From contig DASZWD010000034.1 in NCBI GenBank assembly GCA_035546775.1, positions 1 to 62,391 of the forward strand: 62,391 nt of DNA, in the 5' to 3' direction. Source of the stretch: Acidimicrobiales bacterium (GTDB taxonomy: Bacteria; Actinomycetota; Acidimicrobiia; Acidimicrobiales; JACCXE01). Below, piece after piece: positions 14,505-44,145 of the stretch (its first letter is position 1; each line of letters starts with the position of its first letter). Below the pieces are notes generated by a model, which saw nothing but the letters and a program-made list of their open reading frames with translations, was not told the DNA's origin and did no database searches. The translations under genes were made by a program, and so were the position numbers.

Positions 14505-14832
14505 AGCGGTGACTCCCGAGGGCGACGACCATCAGCCCTTCGCCGAGGATCAACAGCGCGTTGGTGAGCGAGACGAGCACGCCGAGCTGGCCCAAGAAGC
14601 GCTTGTAGTCGACGAGCTCGCCGCGCCGCAGCGGCACCGACGCCAGACCGGCGCCGGCCAACGCGCCCGCCGCGGTCACCGCGGTGATGAGGTGCAGCAC
14701 CCACACCCGGGTCGAGCCAGTGCAGGTCGTGCGGGTCAGCGCCGCCTCCGACACGAGGTGCAGCATCCACAGCCCCGTGGTGCCCAGCAGCGGATACCAC
14801 AGCTCGAACAGGTCGGCGATCAACGGACCCAC
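14497..14832 (-). CDS. small membrane protein of the oxidase operon (111 aa)
   Basis: The chosen GTG at 14832 lies inside the end of the subunit III gene (13-base overlap), typical of coupled genes. The product has three hydrophobic helices (LLGTTGLWMLHLVSEAAL, VWVLHLITAVTAAGALAGAG, LGVLVSLTNALLILGEGLMV) and a His in the first two. I do not recognise a family. Its place between ctaE and the ctaG-like gene suggests an accessory subunit or assembly factor, by context only. Confidence 0.7.
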   Translation of the reverse strand: MGPLIADLFELWYPLLGTTGLWMLHLVSEAALTRTTCTGSTRVWVLHLITAVTAAGALAGAGLASVPLRRGELVDYKRFLGQLGVLVSLTNALLILGEGLMVVALGSHRCG

Positions 14833-15410
14833 CTCGGCGCCAGGAACATCGCCGGGAACACGAAGAGCCACACCACGTCGACGAAGTGCCAGTACAGCGA
14901 GAACACCGACACGCTGACGCGCCGTCCCGTGTCGTAGCGCCCGAACCACGCCTTGGCTTGGATCACGCCGCTCATCACCAGCGCCACGCACACGTGAGCG
15001 AGGTGCAGCCCGATGATCGTGTAGTGCAGCGACGCGTAGGTGTTGTCGCGCCAGCCGAAGTGCAGTTCGTGGAAGTCGTAGAAGCTGTAGGCCACAAAGG
15101 CCGCGGCCATCACGAAGGCCAGCGCGGTGAGCACCTTGAACTGTGTGACGCGGCCGCGCTCGATGGCGTGCTCGGCGGCGATGACCGGCAGGCTGCTAGT
15201 CCACAGCACGACGCTGAACACCAGGGCGAGGCCGAGCTTCGGCTCCTCGATGCCGACCGGCGGCCACTGCTTCGACTGCGCCATCACGAAGAAGTTGGCC
15301 GACAGCAGCAAGGCGAAGATCGTCGACTCCGTGGCGATGGTCACGACCATCCCCCACCACGCGATCGGGTAACTCCGCTGCTGCTGCTGCGGCAGTGCGA
15401 CCGTCGTCAT
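14820..15410 (-). CDS. ctaE: cytochrome c oxidase subunit III
   Basis: A 196-residue protein with five predicted helices. It shows the subunit III pattern WWGMVVTIATESTIFALLLS, the central YSFYDFHELHFGW, then HYTIIGLHLAHV and SLYWHFVDVVWLFVF at the C terminus. The start ATG at 15410 overlaps the end of ctaD by 4 bases. Subunit III stabilises the oxidase core and its proton uptake side. Confidence 0.93.
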   Translation of the reverse strand: MTTVALPQQQQRSYPIAWWGMVVTIATESTIFALLLSANFFVMAQSKQWPPVGIEEPKLGLALVFSVVLWTSSLPVIAAEHAIERGRVTQFKVLTALAFVMAAAFVAYSFYDFHELHFGWRDNTYASLHYTIIGLHLAHVCVALVMSGVIQAKAWFGRYDTGRRVSVSVFSLYWHFVDVVWLFVFPAMFLAPRWVR

Positions 15411-17269
15411 ACGAGGTCGGACTCCGTGTGCCAGGTCCACCAGCCGACGGCCACCGCGATGCCCGCGGCGGCGAGCCACGTGCACACGGTGGCGTCGATG
15501 AGCAGCCCGACGAAGAACAACGCGATCGCCGCCGCGCACAGGAACGGCACCAGCGTTTCGGGCGGCACGATGAGTTCACCCTCAGGCCGGGTGTCCATGC
15601 CGTGGGTGACCGTGGCGGTGCGCGTCGCCGGTATCGGCTGGCTCGCCAGCGCGGCATCGTCCCACAGCGGGTGGCGGCTTTCGACGACGGGCAACTCGGC
15701 GAAGTTGTATTCGGGCGGCGGCGACGTGGTCGACCACTCGAGCGAGTCGGCGTCCCACGGGTTCGCCGGCGCCGTGCGCGGCCCGCGCCGCGACGCGATG
15801 AACGCCCACAGCGAGATGCCCGTCCCCAGACCGAAGAAGCCCGACGCGATGCTCACCAGCATGTTGAGCCCGTTCCAGCCGAGACCGTCGTGGTACGTGT
15901 AGATGCGCCGCGGCATGCCGAGGAAGCCGAGGATGTGCATAGGGAAGAACGTCAGGTTGAACGAGACGAACATCACCCAGAAGCTCCACTTGCCGAGGCG
16001 CTCCGACAGCGGCCGGCCCGTCATCTTGGGCAGCCAGTAGTACATCGCCCCGAAAATGGGGAACACGACGGCCCCGTTGAGCACGTAGTGGAAGTGGGCG
16101 ACGACGAAGTAGCTGTCGGTCACCTGCCAGTCGAAGGGCATCACCGCCACCATCACGCCGGTGATGCCGCCGAGCAGAAAGATCAGCAGGAAGCCGATGC
16201 AGAACAGCATCGGCGTCGTCAGCTGCACCTTGCCCTTCCACATGGTGGCGATCCAGGCGAAGAACTGGATGCCGCTGGGCAGCGTCACCAGCAGGCTGAC
16301 GCCGGAGAAGAACGCCAGCGCGAGGGCGGGCATGCCGGTGGCGAACATGTGGTGCACCCACACGCCGAAGCTGATGAAGCCCACGCCGACGAGGGCGGCG
16401 ACAACCCAGAAGTAGCCGGCGAGGGGCCGGCGCGAGAACACCGGCAGGATCTGGCTCACCATGCCGGTGGCCGGCACGAACAGGATGTACACCTCGGGGT
16501 GGCCCCAGAACCAGAACAGGTGCTGGTACAGCAGGACGCTGCCGCCGAGGGCCGGCACGAAAAACGCAGTGCCGAAGATGCGGTCGAGTTCGAGCAGCCC
16601 CGCGGCGAGCGTCACCGCCGGCACGGCGAAGATCACCATCATCGAGAACACGAGCATCGACCACACGAAGATGGGCATGCGGTTGACGCGCATGCCCGGC
16701 GCCCGCAGCTTGAAGATCGTGACGATGAAGTTGATGGCGCCGACCGTCGTCGAGATACCGAGGAACACGACGGCGAGGCCCCAGAAGTCGAGGTTGATGC
16801 CGGGCGAGTAGTTGGAGTTCGTCATCGGCACGTAGGCGAACCAGCCGCCGTCGGGCACGCGACCCACGAGATAGCTCGAGTACAGGAACACGCCGCCGAG
16901 CAGGAAGATCCAGTAGCTGAAGGCGTTGAGCCGCGGGAAGGCCATGTCGCGGCTGCCGATCATCAGCGGCACGAGGTAGTTGCCGAACCCCGCCAGCACC
17001 GGCGTGTTGAACAGGAAGATCATGGTGGTGCCGTGCATGGTGAACAGCTCGTTGAACTGCTGCGGACCCACGAGGTGGTTGTTCGGCACCGCCAGCTGGC
17101 CGCGCATCGCCAGCGCCGTCAGCCCGGCGATGAAGAAGAACACGAAGGACGTGTAGATGTAGCGCAGCCCGATGCGCTTGTGATCGACGGTGGTGAGGAA
17201 GCCGGTGATGCCGGGCGCGTCCTCCCACAGTTCTTCGAACTCGGCGTCGGGTTCGGTCAGCACCGCCAT
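15407..17269 (-). CDS. ctaD: cytochrome c oxidase subunit I with a fused subunit-IV-like tail
   Basis: A 620-residue heme-copper oxidase catalytic subunit that reduces O2 to water. Motifs are TMHGTTMIF (low-spin heme ligand), WGHPEVYIL (CuB His, cross-linked Tyr and the proton-channel Glu), WVHHMF (CuB) and HFHYVLNGAV (heme a3 and heme a ligands). The presence of HPEVY marks an A-type enzyme. After the last canonical helix the chain adds about 80 residues with two more hydrophobic segments (FLCAAAIALFFVGLLI, LAAAGIAVAVGWW), like a fused small subunit IV. Confidence 0.95.
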   Translation of the reverse strand: MAVLTEPDAEFEELWEDAPGITGFLTTVDHKRIGLRYIYTSFVFFFIAGLTALAMRGQLAVPNNHLVGPQQFNELFTMHGTTMIFLFNTPVLAGFGNYLVPLMIGSRDMAFPRLNAFSYWIFLLGGVFLYSSYLVGRVPDGGWFAYVPMTNSNYSPGINLDFWGLAVVFLGISTTVGAINFIVTIFKLRAPGMRVNRMPIFVWSMLVFSMMVIFAVPAVTLAAGLLELDRIFGTAFFVPALGGSVLLYQHLFWFWGHPEVYILFVPATGMVSQILPVFSRRPLAGYFWVVAALVGVGFISFGVWVHHMFATGMPALALAFFSGVSLLVTLPSGIQFFAWIATMWKGKVQLTTPMLFCIGFLLIFLLGGITGVMVAVMPFDWQVTDSYFVVAHFHYVLNGAVVFPIFGAMYYWLPKMTGRPLSERLGKWSFWVMFVSFNLTFFPMHILGFLGMPRRIYTYHDGLGWNGLNMLVSIASGFFGLGTGISLWAFIASRRGPRTAPANPWDADSLEWSTTSPPPEYNFAELPVVESRHPLWDDAALASQPIPATRTATVTHGMDTRPEGELIVPPETLVPFLCAAAIALFFVGLLIDATVCTWLAAAGIAVAVGWWTWHTESDLV

Positions 17270-18195
17270 CAGCGCAGCCCTTCCAGGTAGGCGACGAGGG
17301 CGTCGACGTCGGCCTTGGACAGGTCGAAGGGCGGCATCACGTTGCCCCGCTTGACGGCTTGGGAGTCACGGATCCACGCCGCCAGGTTCGCCGGCGTGTT
17401 GCGCACAGTGAGCGCGCCCAGCCAGCGCCGCTCGCCGAGGTCGGTCAGGTCGGGGCCGACGTTGCCGCGGCTGACGCCCTTGATCGTGTGGCACCCGGCG
17501 CACGCTTCGCGCGTGAAGACGCGCTGGCCGGCGTCCTGCTGCTCGTTGGTGGGCGTGGGCATCACCGCCGCCTGGCGCGTCAACCAGCGGTCGAACGCCT
17601 GCGGCGCCATGGCGATGACGGCGAAGCGCATATTGGCGTGCTGGATCGAGCAGTACTCGGCGCACTCACCGAGGTACGTGCCGGGCTTGGTGACCGTGAG
17701 GTGCAGGTAGTTGGTCTGGCCGGGAATGGTGTCGACCTTGCCGGCGAGGTCGGGCACCCAGAACGAGTGGATGACGTCGCCGCTGTCGAGGCGGAACGTG
17801 ATCGGCCGGCCGACGGGCACGCGGATCTCATTGGCGGTGCGCACGTCCACGCTCGGGTAGTGCACGTCCCAGAACCAGCGCTTGGCCACAACTTCGATCT
17901 GCACACCGGTGCGCGACGACGCGTCGGCCTTCACCGTCGTCTGCACGGTGAGCACGGCGACGACGAAGAGGATGACGAGGGGCATGACGATGCCGCCGCC
18001 GACGATGACGGCGTTCTCGCGTCGACCGTCGCCCTCGGGGCCCCCGCGCCGGAAGCGGCCGCGCAGCACGGCGACGACCACGAGCGTGCCCACGACGACG
18101 TACACCGCCGCGCCCAAACCGAAGATGGCCCACCACAGGCCGGCGATGTCGTGGCCCTGGCTGCCGGCGCCGTGCAGGATCGACGGGCCGTTCAT
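17269..18195 (-). CDS. ctaC: cytochrome c oxidase subunit II with C-terminal cytochrome c domain
   Basis: A 308-residue protein with two N-terminal helices, then the CuA cupredoxin domain with an upstream ligand His in DVIHSFWVP and the cluster CAEYCSIQHANM. The chain continues into a c-type cytochrome domain with CAGCH (about residue 235) and an NVMPPF axial Met segment. So this is a caa3-like subunit II carrying its own electron-entry heme. No lipobox is seen. The ATG at 18195 overlaps the Rieske gene's end by 4 bases. Confidence 0.93.
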   Translation of the reverse strand: MNGPSILHGAGSQGHDIAGLWWAIFGLGAAVYVVVGTLVVVAVLRGRFRRGGPEGDGRRENAVIVGGGIVMPLVILFVVAVLTVQTTVKADASSRTGVQIEVVAKRWFWDVHYPSVDVRTANEIRVPVGRPITFRLDSGDVIHSFWVPDLAGKVDTIPGQTNYLHLTVTKPGTYLGECAEYCSIQHANMRFAVIAMAPQAFDRWLTRQAAVMPTPTNEQQDAGQRVFTREACAGCHTIKGVSRGNVGPDLTDLGERRWLGALTVRNTPANLAAWIRDSQAVKRGNVMPPFDLSKADVDALVAYLEGLR

Positions 18196-18998
18196 CCGCG
18201 GTGCCAGTACGCCGGGCCGACCGGCTGGGTGAAGTCCGACGTGGCGTAGACGAAGCCGTCGGCGTCGATCTCGATCGGCAGTTGCGGCAGCGGGGCGCCG
18301 GCGGGGCCGAACACCGGCTTGGCGTCGTGGAGCACGTCGAAAGCCGACTGGTGGCACGGGCACAGCAACTGGTGATCGGCCGCCTCGTAGAGGGCGACGG
18401 GGCAGCCGGCGTGGGTGCACACGCGGGAGAAGGCGATGAAGTCGCCGGGCACGAGGCCGGGTTCGAGGTGAATGAGCACGGCCTGGCCGTCGGCCGATCC
18501 GGGATGGCCTTCGGGGAAGATGGTGACGATGCCGCCGACGGGCACGTCGGCGGATTGCACGCGCTTTCCCTGCTCGTTGACCGCGCGGCGGTTGCGGGCC
18601 CACGGGGTGACGCCGAGGGCGCCGCCGGGCTTGGGCCCGAGCGAGCGCAGCGGCAGCAGGACCGCCGCGCCCGTGGTCACCGCGGCGAAGCCGAGCGCCC
18701 GGCCGAGCAGCCTGCGCCGACCGAGGGCCGTGGCGCCGCGGCGGAAGTCGGCTTCGGTCGCCTCGATCGACGATTCGGCGCTGGGCAGCGGCTCGCGCTC
18801 CTGTTCGAATGGGCCGCGGGGCATGAGGCGGTTGGCCCACGTCACCAGGCCGAAGCACAGCCCGGCGAAGGCCAGCGCGAGGAGGCCACCGAGCACGGGC
18901 GTGCTGGCGTCCTGCACGTAGGCGACGCACAGGCCGGCGCCGGCCAACCCGGCGATCACGAACCACGCGGCGGCGCGCGCCTCGGCGGCGCGGTTCAC
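18192..18998 (-). CDS. qcrA: Rieske iron-sulfur subunit of the bc1 complex
   Basis: A 268-residue protein with three N-terminal hydrophobic helices (about residues 10-30, 35-55 and 100-120), as in actinobacterial QcrA, followed by the Rieske domain with CTHAGC and CPCHQSAF binding the 2Fe-2S cluster and a GPAGAPLPQLPI strand. It carries electrons from menaquinol toward cytochrome c. The start is the GTG at 18998, which overlaps the TGA of qcrC (GTGA). Confidence 0.93.
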   Translation of the reverse strand: MNRAAEARAAAWFVIAGLAGAGLCVAYVQDASTPVLGGLLALAFAGLCFGLVTWANRLMPRGPFEQEREPLPSAESSIEATEADFRRGATALGRRRLLGRALGFAAVTTGAAVLLPLRSLGPKPGGALGVTPWARNRRAVNEQGKRVQSADVPVGGIVTIFPEGHPGSADGQAVLIHLEPGLVPGDFIAFSRVCTHAGCPVALYEAADHQLLCPCHQSAFDVLHDAKPVFGPAGAPLPQLPIEIDADGFVYATSDFTQPVGPAYWHRG

Positions 18999-19771
18999 CC
19001 GCGCTCCCCCATCCAGCGCACGAGGCCGATCAAGGCGCCGAGCCCGGCGAGCAGCGCCACCGCGCCCTCGGCGACTGGCCCGAGGTGCCACAGCGCCGAG
19101 CCGCCAGGGTCGACCGGGTGCTGGAGTTGGTGCACATAGGCGACGAGGTCGGCGAGCTGGCCGTCGGTCAGCGCGGCGGTGCCGAACGCCGGCATGTTGC
19201 CTGGCCCGACGCGCACGGCTTCGGCGGTCTGGCGCGCCGTGGCGGCGCGCAGCGCGGGTGCTTCGAGGTGGAGCAGGGCGCCGCCCTCGCCGGCCCACGA
19301 ATGGCAGGCGGCGCAGTTGAGCCGGAAGATCTCGCCGCCCCGGCTGACGTCGCCCCCGGCGAGGAACAACCCGTCGACCGACGGGCCCGATCCGGTGAGC
19401 GACGTGGCGTAGTCGATCAGCGCCCGCATCTCGTCGGACGTGTAGGGCGGGGTGTGGCGTGTCACCTTCAGGTCGTCGTCGGGGGCGAACCGGCCGGGAG
19501 CCAGCGTGCGGGTGCGACCGGGTTCGTCGCTGCGGGCAGTGTGCACGAGCGGCATGCGACCGGTGGAGACGTAGTAGTCGACCGCAGCGCGGCCCACGCC
19601 GTGCAGGCTCGGGCCGTAATGCGTGCCGCGGCCGGTGGCGCCGTGGCAGAAGGCGCAGTCGCGCTGGTAGAGGGCGTGACCGTCGACCGCGGCGTGGGCG
19701 TCACCGCTCGTGAGCCCGAAGTAGGCGGCAACGACGGCGAGCGCGCCAAGTACCGCCAGAATTCGGGCCAC
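18995..19771 (-). CDS. qcrC: diheme cytochrome c subunit of the bc1 complex
   Basis: A 258-residue protein with an N-terminal signal/anchor (MARILAVLGALAVVAAYFG), two c-type heme sites (CAFCH about residue 40, CAACH about 155), a GNMPAFG axial Met segment and a C-terminal helix near residue 240 ending WMGERG. This is the diheme QcrC layout, which passes electrons straight to oxidase in actinobacterial supercomplexes. I take the GTG at 19771, preceded by GGGAAAGA, over the GTG at 19828. The longer start would collide with the divergent small ORF. First gene of the operon. Confidence 0.88.
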   Translation of the reverse strand: MARILAVLGALAVVAAYFGLTSGDAHAAVDGHALYQRDCAFCHGATGRGTHYGPSLHGVGRAAVDYYVSTGRMPLVHTARSDEPGRTRTLAPGRFAPDDDLKVTRHTPPYTSDEMRALIDYATSLTGSGPSVDGLFLAGGDVSRGGEIFRLNCAACHSWAGEGGALLHLEAPALRAATARQTAEAVRVGPGNMPAFGTAALTDGQLADLVAYVHQLQHPVDPGGSALWHLGPVAEGAVALLAGLGALIGLVRWMGERG

Positions 19772-32617: not shown

Positions 32618-33346
32618 CTAGGAGCCGAGGAAGACGGAGCGGAGCAGGTCGCGGCGGCCGGCGAGTTCTTTGCCGCGGCCTTCGAAGCGGACCTGCCCCT
32701 TCTCCATGAACAGCACGCGCTCGGCGGTTTCCATCGCAAGGGTGGCGTGCTGCTCGACGACCAGGATGGTGAGGCCCGTCGCGTTGAGTTCCTTCAGCAC
32801 GTCCATCAGCTGGGCGACGATGACGGGCGCGAGGCCGAGCGACAGCTCGTCGACCATCAGCATTTTCGGGCGCAGCACCAGGGCGCGGGCGATGGCGAGC
32901 ATCTGCTGCTCGCCACCCGACAGCGTGCCGGCGAGTTGCTTGCGCCGCTCCCCCATCCAGCCGAACAGGCCGTAGGCGTACTCGAGGCCCGCCTCGAACT
33001 CGGCCTTCTTGCCCCGGCCGCGCAGCAAGTGGCCGCCGAGGCGGAGGTTCTCGTCGACGGTGAGGTCGGGCAGCGAGCCGCGCCCGCCGGGCACGTGGGC
33101 CAGGCCGACGGCGGCGATCTTGTCGGGCGACCAGCCGGCGATGTCGACCCCGTCGAACACGACGCGCCCGGCCGTCAGGCCTGACAGGTTCGACACCGCC
33201 TTGAGGAACGTCGACTTGCCGGCGCCGTTGGTGCCGAGCAGGGCGACGAACTCGCCGCGGTTGATCGTGATCGACACGTCGAACAGCACGCGCACCTTGC
33301 CGTACTGCAGGTCGAGGTTGGTGGCTTCGAGCAGGGCCTCGGTCAT
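32618..33346 (-). CDS. branched-chain-amino-acid-type ABC transporter ATPase (LivF-like)
   Basis: A 242-residue ABC ATPase with Walker A GTNGAGKST, signature LSGGEQQ, Walker B MLMVDELSLGLAP and switch VEQHA, typical of LivF. It is the last gene of the six-gene importer operon; its ATG at 33346 overlaps the livG-like stop by 4 bases. The cargo may be an amino acid, an organic acid or a steroid-like compound; Liv-type systems are broad. Confidence 0.92.
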   Translation of the reverse strand: MTEALLEATNLDLQYGKVRVLFDVSITINRGEFVALLGTNGAGKSTFLKAVSNLSGLTAGRVVFDGVDIAGWSPDKIAAVGLAHVPGGRGSLPDLTVDENLRLGGHLLRGRGKKAEFEAGLEYAYGLFGWMGERRKQLAGTLSGGEQQMLAIARALVLRPKMLMVDELSLGLAPVIVAQLMDVLKELNATGLTILVVEQHATLAMETAERVLFMEKGQVRFEGRGKELAGRRDLLRSVFLGS

Positions 33347-34125
33347 GCCGACTGCCCCAGGTACGACGTGAGCACTTCGGGGTGGTGACGCACGGCCTCG
33401 GGATCGCCGGCGGTGATGACCTTGCCGGCCGCCATGGCGACGATGGTGTCGGACAGCTTCATGATCATCGGCATGTCGTGCTCGATCAGCAGCATGGTGG
33501 CGCCGAGGTGTTCGGCGACCTGGCGCAGCAGCGGCGCCAGCGCCTCGGTCTCGGCCTGGGCGATGCCCGACGAGGGCTCGTCGAGCAGCAGCAGCTTCGG
33601 CTTGACCGCGATGACCGCCGCCAGCTCGCACAGCCGCAACATGCCCGTCGACAACTCCTGCGCCGGCTTGTCGGCGTGGGGCAGCAGGCCGACGAGGTCG
33701 AGTGCCTCTTCGGCGTTGCGGCGCACGTCGGCTTCGTCGCGGCGGGCGCCGCCGACGCCGAGCACCGAGCGGAAGAAGCCCGAGTGCTTCATCGAGTCGT
33801 GCTGCACCGTGCGCAGGATGTCCAGCAGCGACAGCGACCGGAACATGCGGGCGTTCTGGAACGTGCGGCCGACCCCGAGCGACGTGCGCCGCCACGGCGG
33901 CTGCTGCACCAGGTCAACGGGACCGCTCGGCGTCTGCAACACGATCGAGCCGGAGTCGGGCTTGCGGAAGCCGGAGATGCAGTCGAACAGCGTCGTCTTG
34001 CCGGCGCCGTTCGGGCCGATGATGCCGACGATCTGGCCGGCGGGCACGTCGTAGTTGACGCCGTCGAGAGCGTGCACACCGCCGAAGGACAAGCGCACGT
34101 CGTTGATCGAGAGCGCAATGCTCAT
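33343..34125 (-). CDS. branched-chain-amino-acid-type ABC transporter ATPase (LivG-like)
   Basis: A 260-residue ABC ATPase with Walker A GPNGAGKTT, Walker B LLLLDEPSSGIA and VGRTFQNARMF after the Walker region, typical of LivG. The signature is LSTGMLRL rather than LSGGQ, a departure that could weaken one ATP site. The ATG at 34125 overlaps the permease gene's TGA. Confidence 0.92.
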   Translation of the reverse strand: MSIALSINDVRLSFGGVHALDGVNYDVPAGQIVGIIGPNGAGKTTLFDCISGFRKPDSGSIVLQTPSGPVDLVQQPPWRRTSLGVGRTFQNARMFRSLSLLDILRTVQHDSMKHSGFFRSVLGVGGARRDEADVRRNAEEALDLVGLLPHADKPAQELSTGMLRLCELAAVIAVKPKLLLLDEPSSGIAQAETEALAPLLRQVAEHLGATMLLIEHDMPMIMKLSDTIVAMAAGKVITAGDPEAVRHHPEVLTSYLGQSA

Positions 34126-36188
34126 GCCGTCACCTCCGCCACGACCTCCGGTGCGGGCGTGTCCTCGACGTCGTCCCACGCCGTGGCGCGCGAGCGGATG
34201 AACCGGTTCATCGAGGCCAGGCCACCCGGGTTCACCATCATGATCACCAGCAGCAACGCGGCGGCGATGATCTCGGGCCAGAAGCTGATCGACGTCGCCT
34301 TGACGGCACCCTTGGTCAATTCGGGGTACAGCCCGAACAGCAGCGCGGCGATCACGGGGCCACCGAGCGAACCGATGCCGGCGACCACGGCGTAGGTCAG
34401 CCACGTGATCGAGAAGAACACGGATCCGTACTGTCCGCTGACGCCGCCGAGTTGGTACGCGAGCAACCCGCCGGCCAGCGCCGAGATGGCGCCCGACACC
34501 ACGAAGCCGGTGAGCTTCACCCGCACCGGGCGGATGCCGTAGGCGGCGGCGACGGTCTCGCTGTCGCGGATGGCGTAGAAGCTGCGCCCGACGCGGCTGA
34601 CCGAGATGCGCCACGCCACGAGGAAGGCCAACGCGGTGAGCCCGAGGATCAGGTAGTAGCGGGCGCCGTCGGAGTCGAGCCAGTGCGGCAGCACGACGCG
34701 GTTCGACGCGTCGAAGCGCGGCAGGATCGCCCGCTCCGCCGCGAGGCCGAAGGCGAGCGTCGCCACCGCGAGGTGCAGGCCGCGCAGGCGCAGCGCCGGC
34801 AGGCCGATGAGGATCGACACGGGGATGCTGAAGATCACGCCGCCGATCAGTGGCAACGGGAACGGCAGGTTGAGCGCATTGGCGCAGATGGCGACGCCGG
34901 CACCACCGACGGCGAGGAACGCGCCCTGCGCCACACTGATCTGGCCGAGCCAGCCGACGAGCACGACGAAGCTCAACACGATGAGCAGGTAGATGAGGGC
35001 GAAGTTCGCCGGCAACGTCCAGAACGACGGCAGCGGCAGCGCCGGGAACACGAGGGCGAACACGCCGAGGGCGACGGGGACACCGATGCCGATGACCTTG
35101 CCGAAGCGACCGATCACACCGGTCGTCGGCACGGCGGCGCGGAAGGCGCGGTAGGCCTCGACCGGGTCGATGAAACGCGCCAGACGCGAATCGGTTGCGC
35201 CGCTGCGCGACAGCAGACCCGAGTCCTCGTCATCGCGCAGGCCGCGGAAGATCCACTTGGGACGCGCGGCGAGCACGATGATGACGGCACCGAGGGTGAT
35301 GACTTCGGGGGCGCCCTGGAACAGCTTGGCGTTGTGGGCCAGCAGGTAGTGCCGGGCGATCTCCTCGACGATGCCGATGCCGAAGCCGGCGAACGCCGCG
35401 ATGGGGAAGCTGACGAGACCACCGACGATGGCCGCGGCGAAGCCCTTAATCGACAGCAGCGTCAGCAGGTTGGGGTTGGAGGACACCACGAGCGACGCCA
35501 GCGCGATGCCGGCGATGCCCGCGGCGATCGAGCCGCCGATCCACGACACGATCGCCAGGCGCTGTGACGACACGCCGAGCAGGCTGGCCACGTCGGGGTC
35601 GGTGGCCGCGGCGCGGATGGCGAGGCCGGTCGAGGTGAACCGGAAGAAGGCGAACGTCAGCAGCGCGAACGCGGCGACGATGCCGATGACGCCGATGCGC
35701 TCGTAGCTCACGTTGACGCCGGCGATAGCGAACGCCGGCGCGCGCGAGAAGATCGCGTTGTCGTTGCTGACGATGAGGTCGTTGGCGCCGAAGAGCTGCT
35801 GAGTGATCGCGGCGAGCAACAACCCGAGCCCGAGGGTGACGACGGTGAGCGTCACCGTCGACATGCGGGCGAAGGGCCGGATCACGAAGCGCTCGATCAC
35901 GAAGCCGAGCAACGCCGCCATGGTGAGGCTGACGGGCACGGCCGCCCAGAACCCGAGGTGCACCGTCGGGTGCCAGTTCACGTGCACGAACAGGGCGTTG
36001 AAGTGCAGCCCGTAGGTGCGACCGTTGACGAGGTCGTAGTGGAAGAACGCGACGAACGTCGCCATCCCGCCGTAGGCGAAGTTCGGAATACGCGTCGCCT
36101 TGTAGATGAGCACGAGGCCCATGGCGAGCAGCGCGTAGACCGCGCCGGTGACGAGGCCGCCGGGCAGCGTGGACAGAAACTGGGTCAT
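34122..36188 (-). CDS. fused LivH-LivM permease
   Basis: A 688-residue protein joining two permeases that are usually separate. Residues about 1-300 match LivH (GAVYALLAMGLVLIYKATRIPNFAYG). Residues about 390-660 match LivM (ALIYLLIVLSFVVLVGWLGQISVAQGAF, AVVAGIGSLGGPVIAALL). A cytoplasmic linker of about 60 residues with SGLLSRSGATDSRLARFIDP connects them. Fusion fixes the 1:1 stoichiometry of the channel. Both ends overlap neighbouring genes by 4 bases. Confidence 0.93.
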   Translation of the reverse strand: MTQFLSTLPGGLVTGAVYALLAMGLVLIYKATRIPNFAYGGMATFVAFFHYDLVNGRTYGLHFNALFVHVNWHPTVHLGFWAAVPVSLTMAALLGFVIERFVIRPFARMSTVTLTVVTLGLGLLLAAITQQLFGANDLIVSNDNAIFSRAPAFAIAGVNVSYERIGVIGIVAAFALLTFAFFRFTSTGLAIRAAATDPDVASLLGVSSQRLAIVSWIGGSIAAGIAGIALASLVVSSNPNLLTLLSIKGFAAAIVGGLVSFPIAAFAGFGIGIVEEIARHYLLAHNAKLFQGAPEVITLGAVIIVLAARPKWIFRGLRDDEDSGLLSRSGATDSRLARFIDPVEAYRAFRAAVPTTGVIGRFGKVIGIGVPVALGVFALVFPALPLPSFWTLPANFALIYLLIVLSFVVLVGWLGQISVAQGAFLAVGGAGVAICANALNLPFPLPLIGGVIFSIPVSILIGLPALRLRGLHLAVATLAFGLAAERAILPRFDASNRVVLPHWLDSDGARYYLILGLTALAFLVAWRISVSRVGRSFYAIRDSETVAAAYGIRPVRVKLTGFVVSGAISALAGGLLAYQLGGVSGQYGSVFFSITWLTYAVVAGIGSLGGPVIAALLFGLYPELTKGAVKATSISFWPEIIAAALLLVIMMVNPGGLASMNRFIRSRATAWDDVEDTPAPEVVAEVTA

Positions 36189-37537
36189 GAGGTGCGTCGC
36201 AGTCGGCTGAGGCCAAGGTGGGTGATGACGAGCCACGCCACCGCGCACACGACGAGCAGCGTCGTGCGGGTCACGCCGTCGAGCGGGGTGACGGCGACGA
36301 AGCGCGCCTGCTTGGCGAGTGTGGATGCCGGCCGGTGCTTGGTCGGCGCCGTCGGCGTTTCGGGTGCGAGGGCGACGGGCGTGTCGGGCGTCGGCGCCAC
36401 GGCGACGTCGAGGCTCGGCAGGGCGCCCACGGACTGGTCGCCGTTGGTGAGGTCGCCGAGACCAAAGCCGCCCGGATCCGCGGTCGCGCTGGCGGCCGAG
36501 TAGGCGAAGCCGACGACGACCTGCACACGCTCAGGCGTGAACTCCTTCGGCGTGACGTTCTGGGGCAGGTCGCACACCACGAGCAGCCCGGCGCGCATCG
36601 ACGCGGCGAACGTGCCGTCTTCGGCCAGGCCCGTCTTGGGCGTCGGCCGGGCGAAGAGGTAGCCCTGCGGGTAGCGGCCGGGGTTGTCGATGACGTCGAT
36701 GCGGCACCCCGACGCGACGAGCGCCGTGTTGGCCTGATCGATGACGGCCTGACCGGCGTTGCCGAACAGCGGCACCTGCTGCGAGCCGGCGACGAGTTGG
36801 TCATCGGCGATCGAGAACCGCACGCCGGCCACGCGCACGTCGTGCACGCTGACGCGCGTGCTGGTCGCCGCGCCCCCCTTCTGCCCCGTCACGCTCGACG
36901 CGCTCGAGATGTCGACGCCGCCGATGGTCACGACGCCGCCGGCGATCGAGATGTTCGACGCGTGCGCCGAGGTGTCGGACTTGTCGGCGCCCTTCTCGGT
37001 GCGCATGAACGACGTCGACTCGAGGTTGTCCGCTGACACGCCGACGCCGGCGTAGTGGTCGACGCTGCCGTCGAGCTGGCTCCGCGGCCCGGCGTTGCAC
37101 TCGGCCGTGGCGTGCGATACCGGCGGCACCGCCTTGGTCTCGTCGCGCGTGTCGGTCGGGAAACCGAAGGCGACGTCGACGAGATCGCCGGGATAGAAGC
37201 ACTCCGCCTGGGGCAGGCGGTTGTACTTCTTGGGGTCGCTGATCTCGTGGTTCGGGTTGACGTACTCGCCGGCGACCACCGCGTCGAAGTGCGTCGGCGC
37301 GCCGGCGACGCCCTTGGCGTTCTCCCCCGCGCTGGTGCGCCGCGTCTCGCCCACGGTGTGCGGGATCGTGCCGGGACCCGCGGGGAGCGGGATGTCGTAC
37401 TCGACGCGCAGCGCGTAGCTCTCGGCTTCGGCGGTGACGAGACCGTCGAGGCCGTCGGCCGAACTCACCGACGACACCAGTGGCACGATCATCATGCCGA
37501 GTAGCAGCGCGACGAGACCGAGGGCGAGGCGTTTCAT
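36185..37537 (-). CDS. exported protein with C-terminal membrane anchor, ABC-operon accessory (450 aa)
   Basis: The protein starts with a signal peptide (MKRLALGLVALLLGMMIVPLV) and ends with a single helix (LLVVCAVAWLVITHLG) and LRRTS, so about 390 residues face outward. The ectodomain is beta-rich with a repeated Val/Ser pattern (VTIGGVDISSASSV, VSVHDVRVAGVRFSI), four Cys and a Pro/Ala-rich stalk before the anchor. I recognise no domain. The ATG at 37537 follows the previous stop by 4 bases; a GTG at 37549 is possible. Its overlap with the permease gene argues that it works with the importer, perhaps as an outer scaffold or solute-delivery factor (inference). Confidence 0.8.
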   Translation of the reverse strand: MKRLALGLVALLLGMMIVPLVSSVSSADGLDGLVTAEAESYALRVEYDIPLPAGPGTIPHTVGETRRTSAGENAKGVAGAPTHFDAVVAGEYVNPNHEISDPKKYNRLPQAECFYPGDLVDVAFGFPTDTRDETKAVPPVSHATAECNAGPRSQLDGSVDHYAGVGVSADNLESTSFMRTEKGADKSDTSAHASNISIAGGVVTIGGVDISSASSVTGQKGGAATSTRVSVHDVRVAGVRFSIADDQLVAGSQQVPLFGNAGQAVIDQANTALVASGCRIDVIDNPGRYPQGYLFARPTPKTGLAEDGTFAASMRAGLLVVCDLPQNVTPKEFTPERVQVVVGFAYSAASATADPGGFGLGDLTNGDQSVGALPSLDVAVAPTPDTPVALAPETPTAPTKHRPASTLAKQARFVAVTPLDGVTRTTLLVVCAVAWLVITHLGLSRLRRTS

Positions 37538-37541
37538 CCCG

Positions 37542-38555
37542 CTATTCACCGGCCGCCACCTCCACGAACACTTCGGACGGCTTGAGCCCGTTGCAGGCGC
37601 CCCGCACGTAGCCGAAGCCGGCGGCGATGAACACCAGCACGCCGGCGAAGGCGCCGCGGGCAACGATGACGGCGGCGAGCGCCGGATGCGACGGCAAGAC
37701 GAACACGATCAGCTTCGACAGCAGCACGCCGACGAAGGTGGCGTAGACCATGAACTGCAGACCGATGGGCGAACGTGACGGCACCGTCTGCGCGTCGGGA
37801 TCGTCGAGATGCACGCGCCCAGTGGCGAAGTCGAAGGCGCCCATCGAGCGCGTGATGCCACCGAAGATCGTCGTCATCAGCACGGCGACCAGCAGGGCAT
37901 CGGCGAAGCCGGTCGAGGACGTCAGCTTCTCGGCGCTGTAGGCGTGGAACAGCAGCCACGCCACGCCACCGTTGACGAGGGCTTGCGACAGGGCGAACGG
38001 AACCGCCACGTGCAGCCACGCCCGGCGGCGCAGGGAGACGGACTCGGTTGCCGTCGCGGCCGCCGACGCGTACCCGCGCCGGCGCGCCGCACCGTTGACG
38101 GCCACGACGCTGACTCCGGCCAGCGCGGTCAGCGACACGAACACGATCGGGAACTTCGCCACGCGACCGTTGAGCACGGCGGCGACGAGTCCGGCGCCGG
38201 CGCCCGCCCACGCGGCCGCGCCGAGCGCCCACAGCAGGGTCGTGCGCCAGAGCGTCGCGGTGGCAAACGGGTCGCTCGACGACGGCTCGATCGACTCGTC
38301 GGGTGTGACCGCCCGCGTGAGGGAATCGAACGCGCCGCCGTAGAGGTTCGCCGTCCACCCGATGACCGTCGCCGTGGCGGCGGCGACGACCACCATGGCG
38401 GCGACGACGCCAGCGGACAGCACGTGGCCCGCCGCCCGCGAGGTCGCCAGCGCGGCGAACAACGCGAACGTGACGACCTGCTGCACGCCGGTGGAGACGT
38501 AGCCGGAGCGCATCGCCTGGGTGAAGGTGGGCTTGGGAGCAGTTGTGGTCGCCAT
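37542..38555 (-). CDS. polytopic membrane protein, ABC-operon accessory (337 aa)
   Basis: A 337-residue protein with about eight hydrophobic helices. Short polar loops carry GRVHLDDPDAQTVPSRSPIG and a C-terminal GFGYVRGACNGLKPSEVF. It is not a known permease family to me. It lies between the solute-binding protein gene and the exported protein gene, 4 bases from each, and so belongs to the importer operon. It might be an additional channel, a sensor or an envelope adaptor; none is proven. Confidence 0.75.
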   Translation of the reverse strand: MATTTAPKPTFTQAMRSGYVSTGVQQVVTFALFAALATSRAAGHVLSAGVVAAMVVVAAATATVIGWTANLYGGAFDSLTRAVTPDESIEPSSSDPFATATLWRTTLLWALGAAAWAGAGAGLVAAVLNGRVAKFPIVFVSLTALAGVSVVAVNGAARRRGYASAAATATESVSLRRRAWLHVAVPFALSQALVNGGVAWLLFHAYSAEKLTSSTGFADALLVAVLMTTIFGGITRSMGAFDFATGRVHLDDPDAQTVPSRSPIGLQFMVYATFVGVLLSKLIVFVLPSHPALAAVIVARGAFAGVLVFIAAGFGYVRGACNGLKPSEVFVEVAAGE

Positions 38556-38559
38556 CAGC

Positions 38560-40002
38560 TCAGCCCTTCACGAAGATGTCGCAGCCGGCGTACTGGGGCG
38601 GCGGCGTCTCGCCGGGCGGCACGGGTACCGTTTGCATCTGCGGCGTGATCTGCGTCCACTTCAGCGCGCCGTTGTGCTTCTGGATCTGGATGACGTAGCC
38701 GCCGCGCAACGCGTCGTGACAGTTCGGACGCCACGTCCACGACGGCTGGTTCGGATCCGACGTGAGGCCCGGCTGCCAGTTGGTGAACGTGTTGAGCACG
38801 TCCTTGAGCCGCGCCCGCGTGATGTTGTCGCCCAGCTTGGCGATCGAGTCGCGCATCAACAGCGCGGATACGAAGTAGCTCATCGTGACCGAGCTGTAGG
38901 TGTCGGTCTTCGGCGAGATGTCGTGGACGGCCTTGATGTAGTCGGGGTTGTCGTACAGCGCGCCGAACGTGTCGAAGGCGTACATGCCCTCGGAGTAGTC
39001 GCCGAGCGCCTGGTGGATCACGGGCACGCCGATGAGGTAGCCGCCCCAACCCTTGGGCGGCTTGTAGCTCTGCAGCTGGGCTTCGACGCCGCAGTTGATG
39101 ACGGTCGACGCGTCCACCTCGAAGTCGATGAAGTCGACGTTGGCGTTCTTGGCGGCGCTGATGGCGTCGGAACAGCTGGTCTGGCCCGCCGAGAACGGCG
39201 ACAGCACCGGGGTGGCGACGCCGTAGCCCTGCCAGTCCTTGGCCACCGCGTCGGCGTAGGCCTTGGAGTAGTTGGCGGCGCCGGCGTCGAGATACAGGAT
39301 CGCCACCTTCTTCACGCCGAGCGTCTTGGCGCCGAAGTTGGCGAGCCAGAACGACGCCAGGCGCTGCGGCGCGCCGACGGGGAACCAGAACGGGTTGGTG
39401 AACTCGGCTTCCTGCTGGCCGAGGTGGAATACCGGGATGCCCTGCTGCGCCACGTACTGCCCGGCGATGTCGCCGTAGACCATCGAGAGGGCGAACACCT
39501 TGTCGATCTCGACCAGCCGCTTGGTGTTCGCCAGCTGCTTGGCGGGGTCGGCACCGTCGTCGTAGATCTTGAGCACGAGCTTGCGGCCGTTGATCCCGCC
39601 GTGCTGGTTGACGTAGTTGACGCCCGCCGCGAATCCAACGGCGATCTGCTCGCCGTAGACCGCCGCGGGACCCGACGTGAACGTCGAGCCGCCGATGCGG
39701 ATCTCGGTGTCGGTGACGCCCTGGTCGTAGATCGCGTGGGGATGCGCCACCGCCGCGCCGGTGCCGCCGGCGGCCTTGGCCGCGCCGCCCGTCGCCGCGC
39801 CGGACGACGCCTGCAGGTCGCCGAGGGCGATGCCGCTCGAGCTCGCTCCGTCGGCACCGGCGGTGGTGCGGGTGCCCGATCTCGTCGCCGCGACCGGGAT
39901 CGTGTTGCTCCCCGTCGAGGTCGCGACCGCGAGCGTCAGCAGCAGCGCGGCGAGCGCGACGACGTAGCCGATGAGGCGCGATTGCGGACGAGGTGCGGCC
40001 AT
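38560..40002 (-). CDS. ABC transporter substrate-binding protein (Liv type)
   Basis: A 480-residue periplasmic-binding-protein type I. An N-terminal signal helix (LIGYVVALAALLLTLAVATS) and an Ala/Gly/Ser-rich spacer precede the domain that starts GVTDTEIRIGGSTFTSGPAA. GINGRKLVLKIYDDGADP follows, and two lobes end in GCDIFVKG. No lipobox Cys is visible, so anchoring is by the uncleaved helix or not at all. The ATG at 40002 is selected because a MAAPRP start fits the signal sequence. Its promoter carries the TetR-type palindrome 17 bases upstream. It is the first gene of the operon. Confidence 0.9.
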   Translation of the reverse strand: MAAPRPQSRLIGYVVALAALLLTLAVATSTGSNTIPVAATRSGTRTTAGADGASSSGIALGDLQASSGAATGGAAKAAGGTGAAVAHPHAIYDQGVTDTEIRIGGSTFTSGPAAVYGEQIAVGFAAGVNYVNQHGGINGRKLVLKIYDDGADPAKQLANTKRLVEIDKVFALSMVYGDIAGQYVAQQGIPVFHLGQQEAEFTNPFWFPVGAPQRLASFWLANFGAKTLGVKKVAILYLDAGAANYSKAYADAVAKDWQGYGVATPVLSPFSAGQTSCSDAISAAKNANVDFIDFEVDASTVINCGVEAQLQSYKPPKGWGGYLIGVPVIHQALGDYSEGMYAFDTFGALYDNPDYIKAVHDISPKTDTYSSVTMSYFVSALLMRDSIAKLGDNITRARLKDVLNTFTNWQPGLTSDPNQPSWTWRPNCHDALRGGYVIQIQKHNGALKWTQITPQMQTVPVPPGETPPPQYAGCDIFVKG

Positions 40003-40069: not shown

Positions 40070-41023
40070 TCAGGAAGCGGTCGTCCTCGCTAGGGCTTCG
40101 TTGCGAAAACGGTTGATGCGTCGCGAGGATCCCGCCCCGGGGTGATAGCTCTCCGACGCGTGGAACGCGCCGGGTGTCACCAATAGTTCGGTTGCCACGC
40201 CCGCCTGCAACAGCTTCTGCGCGTACTCGATGTCCTCGTCGCGGAAAGCGTCCAGTTCGCCCACATCGATGAAGGTCGGCGGCAACCCCCGCAATTCGTC
40301 CACCGTTGCCCGCGCCGGCGCGGCGTAGATCGGCACGTCGTCGGTGCCGTAACGGTCGCCGAGGTACGCCGACCACCCGAACCGGTTGGCGTCGCGATGC
40401 CACACCTTCGAATAGGTGATCTCCTGGTTCGAGGGCGTGACGTCGCGGTCGTCGATCATCGGATAGAAGAGCACCTGGCCGGCGACGGCGACCTCATCGC
40501 GGTCGCGGGCGAGCAGGCACGTGCCCGCTGCCAGCCCTCCCCCGGCGCTGGCGCCGACCACGGTGATCGACGCCCGGTCGACCCCGAGGTCCGCGGCGTT
40601 GCGCCACAGCCAGAGCAGGCCGGTGTAGCAGTCCTCGACCGGCGTCGGGTAGGGATGCTCGGGCGCGAGGCGGTACTCCACGGACACGACGAGCGCACCG
40701 AAGCGCTCGGCCCAGACCTTGCACACGTAGTCCTGCTCGTCGTACGCGCCGAGGACCATGCCGCCTCCGTGAATCCAGTAGATCGCCGGCGACGGGCCGG
40801 TGCGGCCGTCGTGCTCGTAGATGCGCACGAGCACGTCGTCGCTGACCTGCGTGTCGCGATGTGAGACGCCCGGGACGTCGGGCAGCGTCGCGGCCACCTG
40901 GGCGCGGGTCTCGGCAAACGCCTTGCGGATGACGTCGATACCGACGGAGAAGTCGAGGACGCGATCCGGGAAGCTCTCGAGCATCACTCGCAGTTCCGGG
41001 TCGACGCGGTCGATGAAGTCCAT
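40070..41023 (-). CDS. alpha/beta-hydrolase, hormone-sensitive-lipase family esterase
   Basis: A 317-residue HSL-family esterase: oxyanion IHGGGM (about residue 84), nucleophile elbow GASAGGG (about 158), catalytic Asp in VGELDAFRDED and His in PGAFHASE. The YRLAPEHPYPTPVED segment is typical. It lies 24 bases after the SDR gene in the same direction, in a set that resembles the mycobacterial mymA locus, where LipR has this place. Confidence 0.92.
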   Translation of the reverse strand: MDFIDRVDPELRVMLESFPDRVLDFSVGIDVIRKAFAETRAQVAATLPDVPGVSHRDTQVSDDVLVRIYEHDGRTGPSPAIYWIHGGGMVLGAYDEQDYVCKVWAERFGALVVSVEYRLAPEHPYPTPVEDCYTGLLWLWRNAADLGVDRASITVVGASAGGGLAAGTCLLARDRDEVAVAGQVLFYPMIDDRDVTPSNQEITYSKVWHRDANRFGWSAYLGDRYGTDDVPIYAAPARATVDELRGLPPTFIDVGELDAFRDEDIEYAQKLLQAGVATELLVTPGAFHASESYHPGAGSSRRINRFRNEALARTTAS

Positions 41024-41047
41024 GAATCCAGCATGGCCGACGCGCCG

Positions 41048-41848
41048 TCAGCGACGACGGGCGTTGCCGAAGGAGATGAGGCGGTGCAGGAACGAGCCGG
41101 GCAGGCGCGAGAGGAAGTCGATGACGTTGGCGTCGGGACCGATCAGGGCGCGTCGGCGGTTGGCCTTGACCGCGGCGAGGATCTCGCGCGCCGCCTTGTC
41201 GGGTGTCGTCAGCGCGATGCGATCGAAGTTCGCGGCGAGGCTGCGGTCGCCGCGCATGTTGCGGGCGATGTTGGTCTTGATGCCGCCGGGGTGCACCGTG
41301 GTCGACGACACGCCGCACTTCTCGGCGTCGAGCTCGATGCGCAGTGCGTCGGTGAAGCCGCGCACCGCGAACTTCGCGGCGTTGTACGCCGACTGCGACG
41401 GGATCGACACGAGCCCGAACACGCTCGAGATGTTGACGACGTGGCCGTCGCCCGTCGCTTTGAGATGGGGCAGGAACGCCTGGGTGCCGTGGACGACGCC
41501 CCAGAAGTTGATGTCCATCAACCAGCGGAAGTCCTCGATCGACATCTCGGCGATATCGGCGGCCAGCGCCACGCCGGCGTTGTTGAAGATCAGGTTGACC
41601 TTGCCGTGCTCGGCCACGACCTGATCGGCCCAGGCGAACACGGCGGCGCGGTCGGCGACGTCGACGCGCGCCGACGTGACCTTGACGCCGCGGCCTTCGC
41701 ACGCCGCGACGGTCTCGGCGAGGCCGACCTCGTTCACGTCGCTCAGCGCCAGCGCGCACCCGTCGGCCGCCAGGTTGACGGCGAGGGCGCGCCCGATGCC
41801 GCTGCCGGCGCCCGTGATCGCTGCGACTTTTCCGGCGAAGGTTTTCAT
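41048..41848 (-). CDS. short-chain dehydrogenase/reductase (SadH-like)
   Basis: A 266-residue classical SDR with TGAGSGIG (about residue 13), NNAGVA (about 91), a catalytic Ser in NISSVFG and YNAAK as the YxxxK motif, then HPGGIKTNIARNM. The C-terminal part after about residue 220 carries RRRALIGPDANVIDFLSRLPG, typical of the SadH group associated with envelope lipid loci. The ATG at 41848 overlaps the BVMO gene's end by 4 bases. Confidence 0.92.
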   Translation of the reverse strand: MKTFAGKVAAITGAGSGIGRALAVNLAADGCALALSDVNEVGLAETVAACEGRGVKVTSARVDVADRAAVFAWADQVVAEHGKVNLIFNNAGVALAADIAEMSIEDFRWLMDINFWGVVHGTQAFLPHLKATGDGHVVNISSVFGLVSIPSQSAYNAAKFAVRGFTDALRIELDAEKCGVSSTTVHPGGIKTNIARNMRGDRSLAANFDRIALTTPDKAAREILAAVKANRRRALIGPDANVIDFLSRLPGSFLHRLISFGNARRR

Positions 41849-43290
41849 GCGAACACCATTTCTTCGTCGACGATCGGCTTCATCTTCATCGCGCGGTAGT
41901 CGGCGACGTAGCTGTGCTTCACCTGCCACGGGAACGACGCTCCCTGCCGCGGCAGGCGGTCGGCGGCGCGGTTGATGTAGCCGGAGTTGAGCCCGAAGAC
42001 GCTCGACGTGCTCTGCCCCGCGTCCGACGCCTCGGGCGTGCAACTCGTGAGACCTTCGTGGTGGAGGTGGTTGAGCAGCCGCGTCACGTAGTCGCACGTG
42101 AGGTCGCACTTGAGCGTCCACGACGCGTTCGAATAGCCGATGGCGAAGGCGAGGTTCGGCACGCCCTCGAGCATCATGCCCTTGTAGGTGAGCTTGTCGT
42201 GCGGGTGTACTTCGTCGCCGTCGACCGACAGGCGGACACCGCCGAGGAAGAGCAAGTCGAGGCCGGTCGCCGTCACGATGATGTCGGCGTCGAGGTGCTC
42301 ACCGCTGTCGAGCGTGATGCCCGTCTCGTCGAAGGTGGCGATGGTGTCGGTGACGACGCTCGCCTTACCGGCGCTGATCGCCTTGAACAGATCGCCGTTG
42401 GGCACGACGCACAGGCGCTGGTCCCACGGGTTGTAGCGCGGCGTGAAGTGGCGCTCGACGTCGTAGCCCGCCGGCAGCTGACGCTTCACCTGGCGCACGA
42501 TGATGCCCTTGACCAAGTCCGGCCAGCGCTTGCTGGCGAAATACGACGCCTGGGTCGTGAGCGCCTTGATCCAACGGATGATGGGCGAGCTCAGCGACGA
42601 CGGCAGCGTGCGGCGCAGCGCGTTGGCCAGCGGGTCCTTCGCCGGCAGCGACACGACGTAGGTAGGCGAGCGCTGCAGCATCGTGACGTGCGCCGCCTTG
42701 TCGGTGAGCGACGGGATGAGCGTGACCGCGGTGGCACCGCTGCCGATCACGACGATCTTCTTGCCGGTGTAGTCGAGGTCTTCGGGCCAGTGCTGCGGGT
42801 GGATGACGGTGCCGGTGAACCGGTCGCGGCCGGGGAAGTCCGGCGTGTAACCGTCGTCGTAGCGGTAGTAACCCGTGCAGCTGAACACGAAGCTCGCGGT
42901 CAACTCGAACGTCTCGTTCGTGTCAGCGCGGTGCGCCTTCACGCGCCAGTGACCGTCGGCGCTCGACCAGTCGGCGGCGACGATCTTGTGGTTGAAGCGG
43001 ATGTGCTTGTCCACGCCCGTCTCGCGCGCCGTGTCCTCGATGTAGCGCAGGATCGACGGGCCATCGGCGATCGACTTCTCACCGTCCCAGGGGCGGAACG
43101 AGTAGCCGAGGGTGAACATGTCGGAGTCCGAGCGGATGCCGGGATAGCGGAAGAGATCCCACGTGCCGCCGATGGCGTCGCGCGCTTCGAAGACCGCGTA
43201 GTTCGCCCACGGGCACTTGTCCTGCAAGTAGGCGCCGGCGCCGACGCCGGACAGGCCGGCGCCGATCACCAGGACGTCGAGGTGTTCCAC
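41845..43290 (-). CDS. FAD-containing Baeyer-Villiger monooxygenase (EthA/MymA-like)
   Basis: A 481-residue monooxygenase. FAD-binding VIGAGLSGVGAGAYL lies at residue 7; GGTWDLFRYPGIRSDSDM; the BVMO fingerprint FTGTVIHPQHWPED lies at about 158; and NADPH-binding VIGSGATAVTLIPSL at about 176. The short N terminus and the DLFRYPGIRSDS form are those of EthA/MymA rather than cyclohexanone-type enzymes. It is the second gene of the divergent TetR-controlled unit. It probably oxidises a ketone or a sulfur compound. Confidence 0.94.
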   Translation of the reverse strand: MEHLDVLVIGAGLSGVGAGAYLQDKCPWANYAVFEARDAIGGTWDLFRYPGIRSDSDMFTLGYSFRPWDGEKSIADGPSILRYIEDTARETGVDKHIRFNHKIVAADWSSADGHWRVKAHRADTNETFELTASFVFSCTGYYRYDDGYTPDFPGRDRFTGTVIHPQHWPEDLDYTGKKIVVIGSGATAVTLIPSLTDKAAHVTMLQRSPTYVVSLPAKDPLANALRRTLPSSLSSPIIRWIKALTTQASYFASKRWPDLVKGIIVRQVKRQLPAGYDVERHFTPRYNPWDQRLCVVPNGDLFKAISAGKASVVTDTIATFDETGITLDSGEHLDADIIVTATGLDLLFLGGVRLSVDGDEVHPHDKLTYKGMMLEGVPNLAFAIGYSNASWTLKCDLTCDYVTRLLNHLHHEGLTSCTPEASDAGQSTSSVFGLNSGYINRAADRLPRQGASFPWQVKHSYVADYRAMKMKPIVDEEMVFA

Positions 43291-44145
43291 TTACGCGACC
43301 GCGCTCGTCGCGAGCTTGTCGTTCAGCGTGCCGTTGGCGCCGAACAGCTCCTCGCGCCAAGGCTCGACCAGACCGGTGTGCTCCGACTGGTTCGGGTGGA
43401 AGTCGCGGCGGTTGTAGTCCTTCAGCTGATTCCACAGCTTCTTCGACATCAGCGGCGAATGGCGGACGCGCTTGAGGCTCTGCCACACGCGGCGCGGGTG
43501 ACGGCGGGCGTCCTTGTCGAGCAGCAGCGAGACCACGACCTGACCGGCGATCGCCACGGGAAAGCCGAAGCGCAGCACGTTCATCGTGATGGTGCGCATG
43601 CGCTCGCCGCCGGCGACCTGCTTGTAGACGTCGAAGGCGACCGCCTTGTGCTCGGACTCTTCGAGCGCGTGCCACAGGAAGAGGTTCTTCACCGTCTCGT
43701 CGCCGAACAGGCCGCGCGCCTCGGGGTCGCTCAGGATCAACTCGGCGAGCGTCGCCGTGAAGTGCTCGAGCGCGGCGGTGGTAGCCAGGTTGACGCTGGC
43801 GGGCGCGAACCGCGTCCGCAGCTCGAGGCCCTTCTTGGTGAGGCGCTCCACCACCTTCGTGGGGTAGCCCAGTTCGGCGAAGCGCTCGTTGAGCACGCGG
43901 TGCTCACGGCCGTGGATCGACTCCTGACCGATGAAGCCCGCCACCTGGCGCTTGAGTTCGGGGTCGGTGATCTCGTCGCGGTAATGACGCACCGAGCGCA
44001 CGAAGAAGTCCTCGCCGTCGGGGAACACCGACGAGAGGGCGACGGCGATGTGGCTCGCCACGATGTCGTCGTCTTTGGCGAAGTGCTTCGGCACGGTCTT
44101 GATCGCGTCGTCGAAGTTCATTCTGCGTACGGGGATATCCGTCAT
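43291..44145 (-). CDS. metal-dependent hydrolase, PF10118 family
   Basis: A 284-residue protein with the conserved His/Glu set of the PF10118 'predicted metal-dependent hydrolase' family: QESIHGREH (about residue 73), LEHFTATLAE and HALEESEHKAVAFDVY. These repeated ExxH motifs look like a ferritin-like di-metal site, so it may be an oxygen-using enzyme rather than a true hydrolase. It leads the operon; the ATG at 44145 has TACAGT 7 bases upstream and no ribosome-binding site. A palindromic operator overlaps its promoter. Confidence 0.88.
   Translation of the reverse strand: MTDIPVRRMNFDDAIKTVPKHFAKDDDIVASHIAVALSSVFPDGEDFFVRSVRHYRDEITDPELKRQVAGFIGQESIHGREHRVLNERFAELGYPTKVVERLTKKGLELRTRFAPASVNLATTAALEHFTATLAELILSDPEARGLFGDETVKNLFLWHALEESEHKAVAFDVYKQVAGGERMRTITMNVLRFGFPVAIAGQVVVSLLLDKDARRHPRRVWQSLKRVRHSPLMSKKLWNQLKDYNRRDFHPNQSEHTGLVEPWREELFGANGTLNDKLATSAVA

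Follow-up and report, generated by a model that had tools for sequence, protein, structure and literature searches.

A Liv-type importer operon with two additional envelope proteins, one of which apparently belongs to a surface-protein family that accompanies Liv importers in Actinomycetota

The DNA analysed here (the window) is 62,391 nucleotides long and constitutes the entire contig C34 of an Acidimicrobiales genome of 3.7 Mb that is 97.5% complete. Between positions 40002 and 32618, on the minus strand, lie six genes in the order SBP-TM8-P-LivHM-LivG-LivF, and directly upstream of them are four catabolic genes (40070..44121) on the same strand. The features are as follows.

43291-44121, minus strand: PF10118 hydrolase (Pfam)
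41845-43290, minus strand: FMO-like monooxygenase (Pfam)
41048-41848, minus strand: SDR (Pfam)
40070-41023, minus strand: Abhydrolase_3 esterase (Pfam)
38560..40002, minus strand: SBP, binding protein; PF13458 Peripla_BP_6, E 2.3e-38
37542..38555, minus strand: TM8, 337 aa, about 8 predicted helices, no named family; same-position homologues in four other genomes
36185..37549, minus strand: P, 454 aa, predicted to be secreted and C-terminally anchored; remote choice-of-anchor P homologue
34122..36188, minus strand: LivHM, fused LivH-LivM permease; BPD_transp_2 twice
33343..34125, minus strand: LivG-type ATPase; ABC_tran; closest NCBIfam model LivG, 216 bits, under its equivalog cut-off
32618..33346, minus strand: LivF-type ATPase; ABC_tran; closest NCBIfam model LivF, 205 bits, under its equivalog cut-off

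A first-pass annotation of this DNA had described six tightly packed genes, and all six open reading frames are indeed present, with coding-like codon use in each and with distances from SBP to LivF of 4, -8, -4, -4 and -4 bp (negative values are overlaps). A scan for sigma-70 promoters and terminators returned nothing exceeding shuffled sequences. The four upstream genes are spaced at 67, 24, -4 and 0 bp, beginning with the gap to the operon, and are perhaps co-transcribed with it. Elsewhere in the window, positions 12496-19771 hold a block of membrane-protein genes that by sequence appearance resembles respiratory oxidase/cytochrome genes.

The Liv-type ABC importer is a textbook example of a machine with five parts, and the domain content of the operon identifies it as one complete importer of this kind (branched-chain amino acid, HAAT) plus two extra proteins. 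When the operon is compared to the Liv/HAAT importer (LivKHMGF, with its urea relative UrtABCDE), all five core functions are present with matching domains. The binding protein, fused permease and two ATPases of the first-pass annotation are borne out by Peripla_BP_6, by two copies of PF02653 (BPD_transp_2; E 3e-53) and by ABC_tran in both ATPases. Within LivHM, matches to the NCBIfam UrtB/LivH and LivM/UrtC models follow one another in that order. Unlike the Liv/HAAT importer, the window operon has fused permease halves, two additional envelope proteins, and an SBP that lacks a lipobox and in which the binding-site stretches of LivK are not conserved. The signature loop of its LivG-type ATPase reads LSTGMLR, as opposed to the usual LSGGQ-like sequence, and the LivG of the sister operon in genome G320 reads LSYGMLR.

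The SBP begins with a hydrophobic helix that is followed by a linker of about 60 residues rich in Gly, Ser and Ala. It has no lipobox cysteine, and the SBPs of the TM8-bearing operons have no Cys at all within their first 60 residues. The SBPs of the sister operons share 46-57% identity with the window SBP, and its relatives in the PDB are Leu/Ile/Val-binding proteins. Alignment to the E. coli leucine-binding protein (1usg) shows that the CSSS and GAT stretches, which we take to be the amino-acid contacts, are not conserved. Since these stretches are not kept, we doubt that the substrate is a plain amino acid.

The P protein consists of a signal-like N-terminal helix, a beta-rich middle and a single C-terminal helix (residues 429-447), in agreement with the earlier description of a signal-peptide protein with a beta-rich ectodomain and one anchor. 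Four cysteines (C117, C151, C282 and C326) are invariant. Because of the signal helix, the C-terminal anchor and these four cysteines, we place P outside the membrane, where it would be held by its C-terminal helix. The P protein scores 29.1 bits against NCBIfam NF040603 (choice-of-anchor P), which exceeds the family cut-off of 27, although its orthologues in G055 and G320 give no match to this model at E 0.1. Judging from its name, we take NF040603 to comprise secreted proteins with one of several C-terminal anchors, and the N-terminal hydrophobic and C-terminal helices of P fit this description. Unlike the family at large, the Liv-linked P proteins form a group of their own, with a C-terminal membrane helix and a place in transporter operons. 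The structure predicted for P from a three-sequence alignment has a mean pLDDT of 42, and fold searches with this low-confidence model gave no match above Z 4.3.

Searches of Pfam, NCBIfam, PHROGs and the PDB gave no match to TM8. The first-pass annotation had called it an eight-helix protein; hydropathy gives six helices for the window copy and eight for its homologues in G010 and G055, and a structure predicted from a three-sequence alignment shows eight long helices at low confidence (mean pLDDT 44). Eight helices are plausible on these predictions, while the count for the window protein itself falls short by hydropathy. An internal duplication suspected by eye was not supported (hhalign probability 1.8%). 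The TM8 homologue in G320 (L011:9324-10757) is longer by about 140 residues at its N-terminus, although its true start codon is uncertain; by eye the extension resembles a VOC/glyoxalase-type domain, with no Pfam match.

To follow the two accessory genes beyond the window, we searched 59 relatives for TM8 and for P independently; G010 and G055 contain both, side by side and ordered as in the window. TM8 is also present in one more genome of the class, G320, and a fifth copy of the operon lies in G458, outside the window's class. In these loci, for which genes were called with a simple codon-bias caller trained on the window, the full order SBP-TM8-P-LivHM-LivG-LivF recurs in G010, G320 and G458, and G055 agrees up to the end of its contig. 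The first-pass annotation had made its reading depend upon conservation of the accessory genes with the ABC genes, and such conservation is what these genomes display. As judged from their gene order, P and TM8 are demonstrably inherited together with the complete set of Liv parts. Identity to the window copies falls to 25-28% for TM8 and to 26% for P, so this co-inheritance is not recent. An SBP of the window type occurs in only 2 of 296 class genomes, the window's own and G320, which are exactly the carriers of TM8 among the 296; it scores at least 790 bits, versus 190 bits for the next-best SBP. Further scans for TM8 added no other carrier. A scan of 84,980 species genomes, which needs short conserved peptides, recovered only the G010 and G055 contigs, with G320 and G458 either missed or not in the collection. 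A weak TM8 match in G470 was set aside as chance, as Liv genes are absent nearby and the called genes match no profile. The TM8 operon subtype is real and rare.

The P protein is far more widespread. In the window's own genome there are 8 independent matches to NF040603, and for 7 of them a Liv permease is no more than about 3 kb away; with an assumed Liv footprint of 4.3% of the genome, the chance of this linkage is about 2e-9. These Liv-linked proteins are predicted to be secreted, have a C-terminal helix and lie in or adjoining a Liv operon. One additional P locus (L032) was spotted by eye and then confirmed by a profile, and a P homologue is thus found in at least 8 of the roughly 20 Liv loci of this genome. 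Among ten relatives, 13 of 23 NF040603 matches are linked to Liv genes, and the unlinked ones (in G009 and G029, for example) are ordinary secreted proteins, mostly without the C-terminal helix. Leave-one-out profiles show that the Liv-linked P proteins are one family; a profile built without the window's P subfamily recovers it at E 1e-16 to 1e-8. L067, an unlinked choice-of-anchor P protein, scores almost as well as the weakest Liv-linked P. Therefore, the domain itself is common to other proteins, and it is the linkage to Liv genes that is distinctive.

We then took a profile of the P alignment to 148 genomes of the class and 296 of the phylum. It matched 34 further places, some of which come from close genomes and hence are not independent, and in 27 of these a Liv permease or ATPase adjoins P. 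Two others (L133 and L155) are probably Liv-linked as well, given the limits of contigs or gene calls, and five are not. The first-pass annotation had held that ordinary Liv systems have no counterparts of the two accessory proteins. This is true of TM8, which is limited to its subtype, but it fails for P, whose homologues occur in many Liv operons of the phylum. The description of the system as undescribed agrees with our searches: TM8 has no named family, P has only the generic surface-domain name of NF040603, and the open-access literature yielded no earlier account of either protein. P travels with a whole branch of Liv importers across Actinomycetota, apparently without previous description.

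The loci differ in layout. The window's own genome (G000, 3.7 Mb) has about 20 Liv-type systems, and in L017, L019, L020, L027 and L034 the permease halves and both ATPases form a single fused polypeptide of about 1200-1300 residues. In a third layout (L019, L020, L022, L131, L132, L134-L136 and L140), P lies upstream of a large protein that has an N-terminal helix, and next comes LivHM or LivHMGF as one fused chain. This large protein often has GYGP near its start, and the one copy tested, from L020, weakly matches Peripla_BP_6.

The trees of P and of the permease are congruent. Across 41 loci that have both proteins, their distances are correlated with a Mantel r of 0.87, versus 0.28 for the best of 5000 permutations, and since one genome holds several systems, this agreement follows the type of system and not the species alone. 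On a tree of 56 permeases, the presence of P requires 3 changes as compared to about 11 with shuffled labels (minimum 7), a count that is biased in that the set of loci was assembled around P matches. In both the P tree and the permease tree, the TM8 loci are one clade next to systems that bear P without TM8. These observations bear on whether P and TM8 are simply unrelated surface genes that lie in the operon by chance, as might be suggested by the choice-of-anchor P domains of ordinary secreted proteins far from Liv genes (those of G009 and G029). The order kept across classes, the congruent trees and the clade-wise presence of P contradict such an origin, which we regard as highly improbable. 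A partnership of P and TM8 with the importer, by contrast, is very probable on this sequence evidence.

In many Liv loci, P adjoins a small two-helix protein of about 180 aa (alignment A8), which is found, among others, at these positions:

L018:8363-8890, small two-helix protein
L069:7641-8189, small two-helix protein
L083:4361-4921, small two-helix protein
L086:4731-5285, small two-helix protein

This protein, which belongs to no named family, has a conserved IPYLISGG followed by C-terminal H-x3-C and C-x2-C motifs that look metal-binding and are reminiscent of a zinc site. Like TM8, it stands next to P; it differs from TM8 in having two helices and the Cys/His motif, and the profiles used detect no similarity between the two. 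No locus that we read contains both, and TM8 thus seems to replace the small protein in the window operon. The metal-binding appearance of the motif, together with the usual position of P beside a membrane partner or the permease, would suit a P that regulates or assembles the permease (through folding, gating or sensing of the state of the wall), a signal being passed across the membrane by TM8 or the small protein. Searches of P and TM8 against Pfam and NCBIfam, however, reveal no known signalling domain, and the motif of the small protein is missing from TM8; we consider a regulatory role improbable.

The absence of a lipobox cysteine from the SBPs of the TM8 subtype raises a different prospect, in which P serves as a tether or scaffold: without contacting the substrate, it would bind the SBP and retain it close to the permease in an envelope that has a single membrane. 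The first-pass annotation had proposed that the accessory proteins pass solute through the envelope or hold the binding protein, both of which are possible roles. An alternative hold on an SBP that lacks a lipobox would be useful, and the genes for P and the permease overlap. Yet the window SBP has a hydrophobic N-terminal helix of its own, and in many sister systems (L018, L021, L032, L143 and L148) P coexists with a lipobox SBP, so P is not a simple substitute for a lipid anchor. A tether is accordingly an unlikely role for P, if one that deserves to be weighed ahead of regulation.

The genes that surround these loci offer a hint as to the cargo. The esterase, SDR, monooxygenase and PF10118 hydrolase upstream of the window operon could together open a cyclic ketone or a similar compound. 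Two kinds of gene are modestly commoner beside loci with P and either the small protein or TM8 than in a comparison set, which includes P-less loci as well as other P loci: acyl-CoA dehydrogenases (8 of 98 versus 2 of 94) and thiolases (5 of 98 versus 0 of 94). The neighbours differ between loci, and their enrichment is suggestive only.

Taken together, we lean somewhat towards reading the operon as a Liv importer with a dedicated extracytoplasmic accessory module made up of P and a membrane partner. In this module, P would sit next to the permease, external to the membrane and anchored by its one C-terminal helix, and the partner (TM8 here, the small two-helix protein in sister systems) would hold it there. 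At the cell surface, P might help the SBP to capture or hand over a substrate that would be organic, not an amino acid and probably poorly soluble, and that, once imported, would feed the monooxygenase/esterase/dehydrogenase pathway. We rank capture or hand-over of a hydrophobic substrate first, tethering of the SBP second and regulation third, and the role of P in capture or hand-over is itself tentative. It is possible, at not quite even chances, that a large, undescribed Actinomycetota branch of Liv systems uses a P subunit and a membrane partner to import hydrophobic organics across a thick envelope, with the TM8 operon as one subtype. If so, P would represent a conserved extracytoplasmic subunit that has accompanied the permease by inheritance through deep divergence, and hence a new element of the Liv machine, and it would provide a handle on what many Liv systems import in uncultured actinobacteria.
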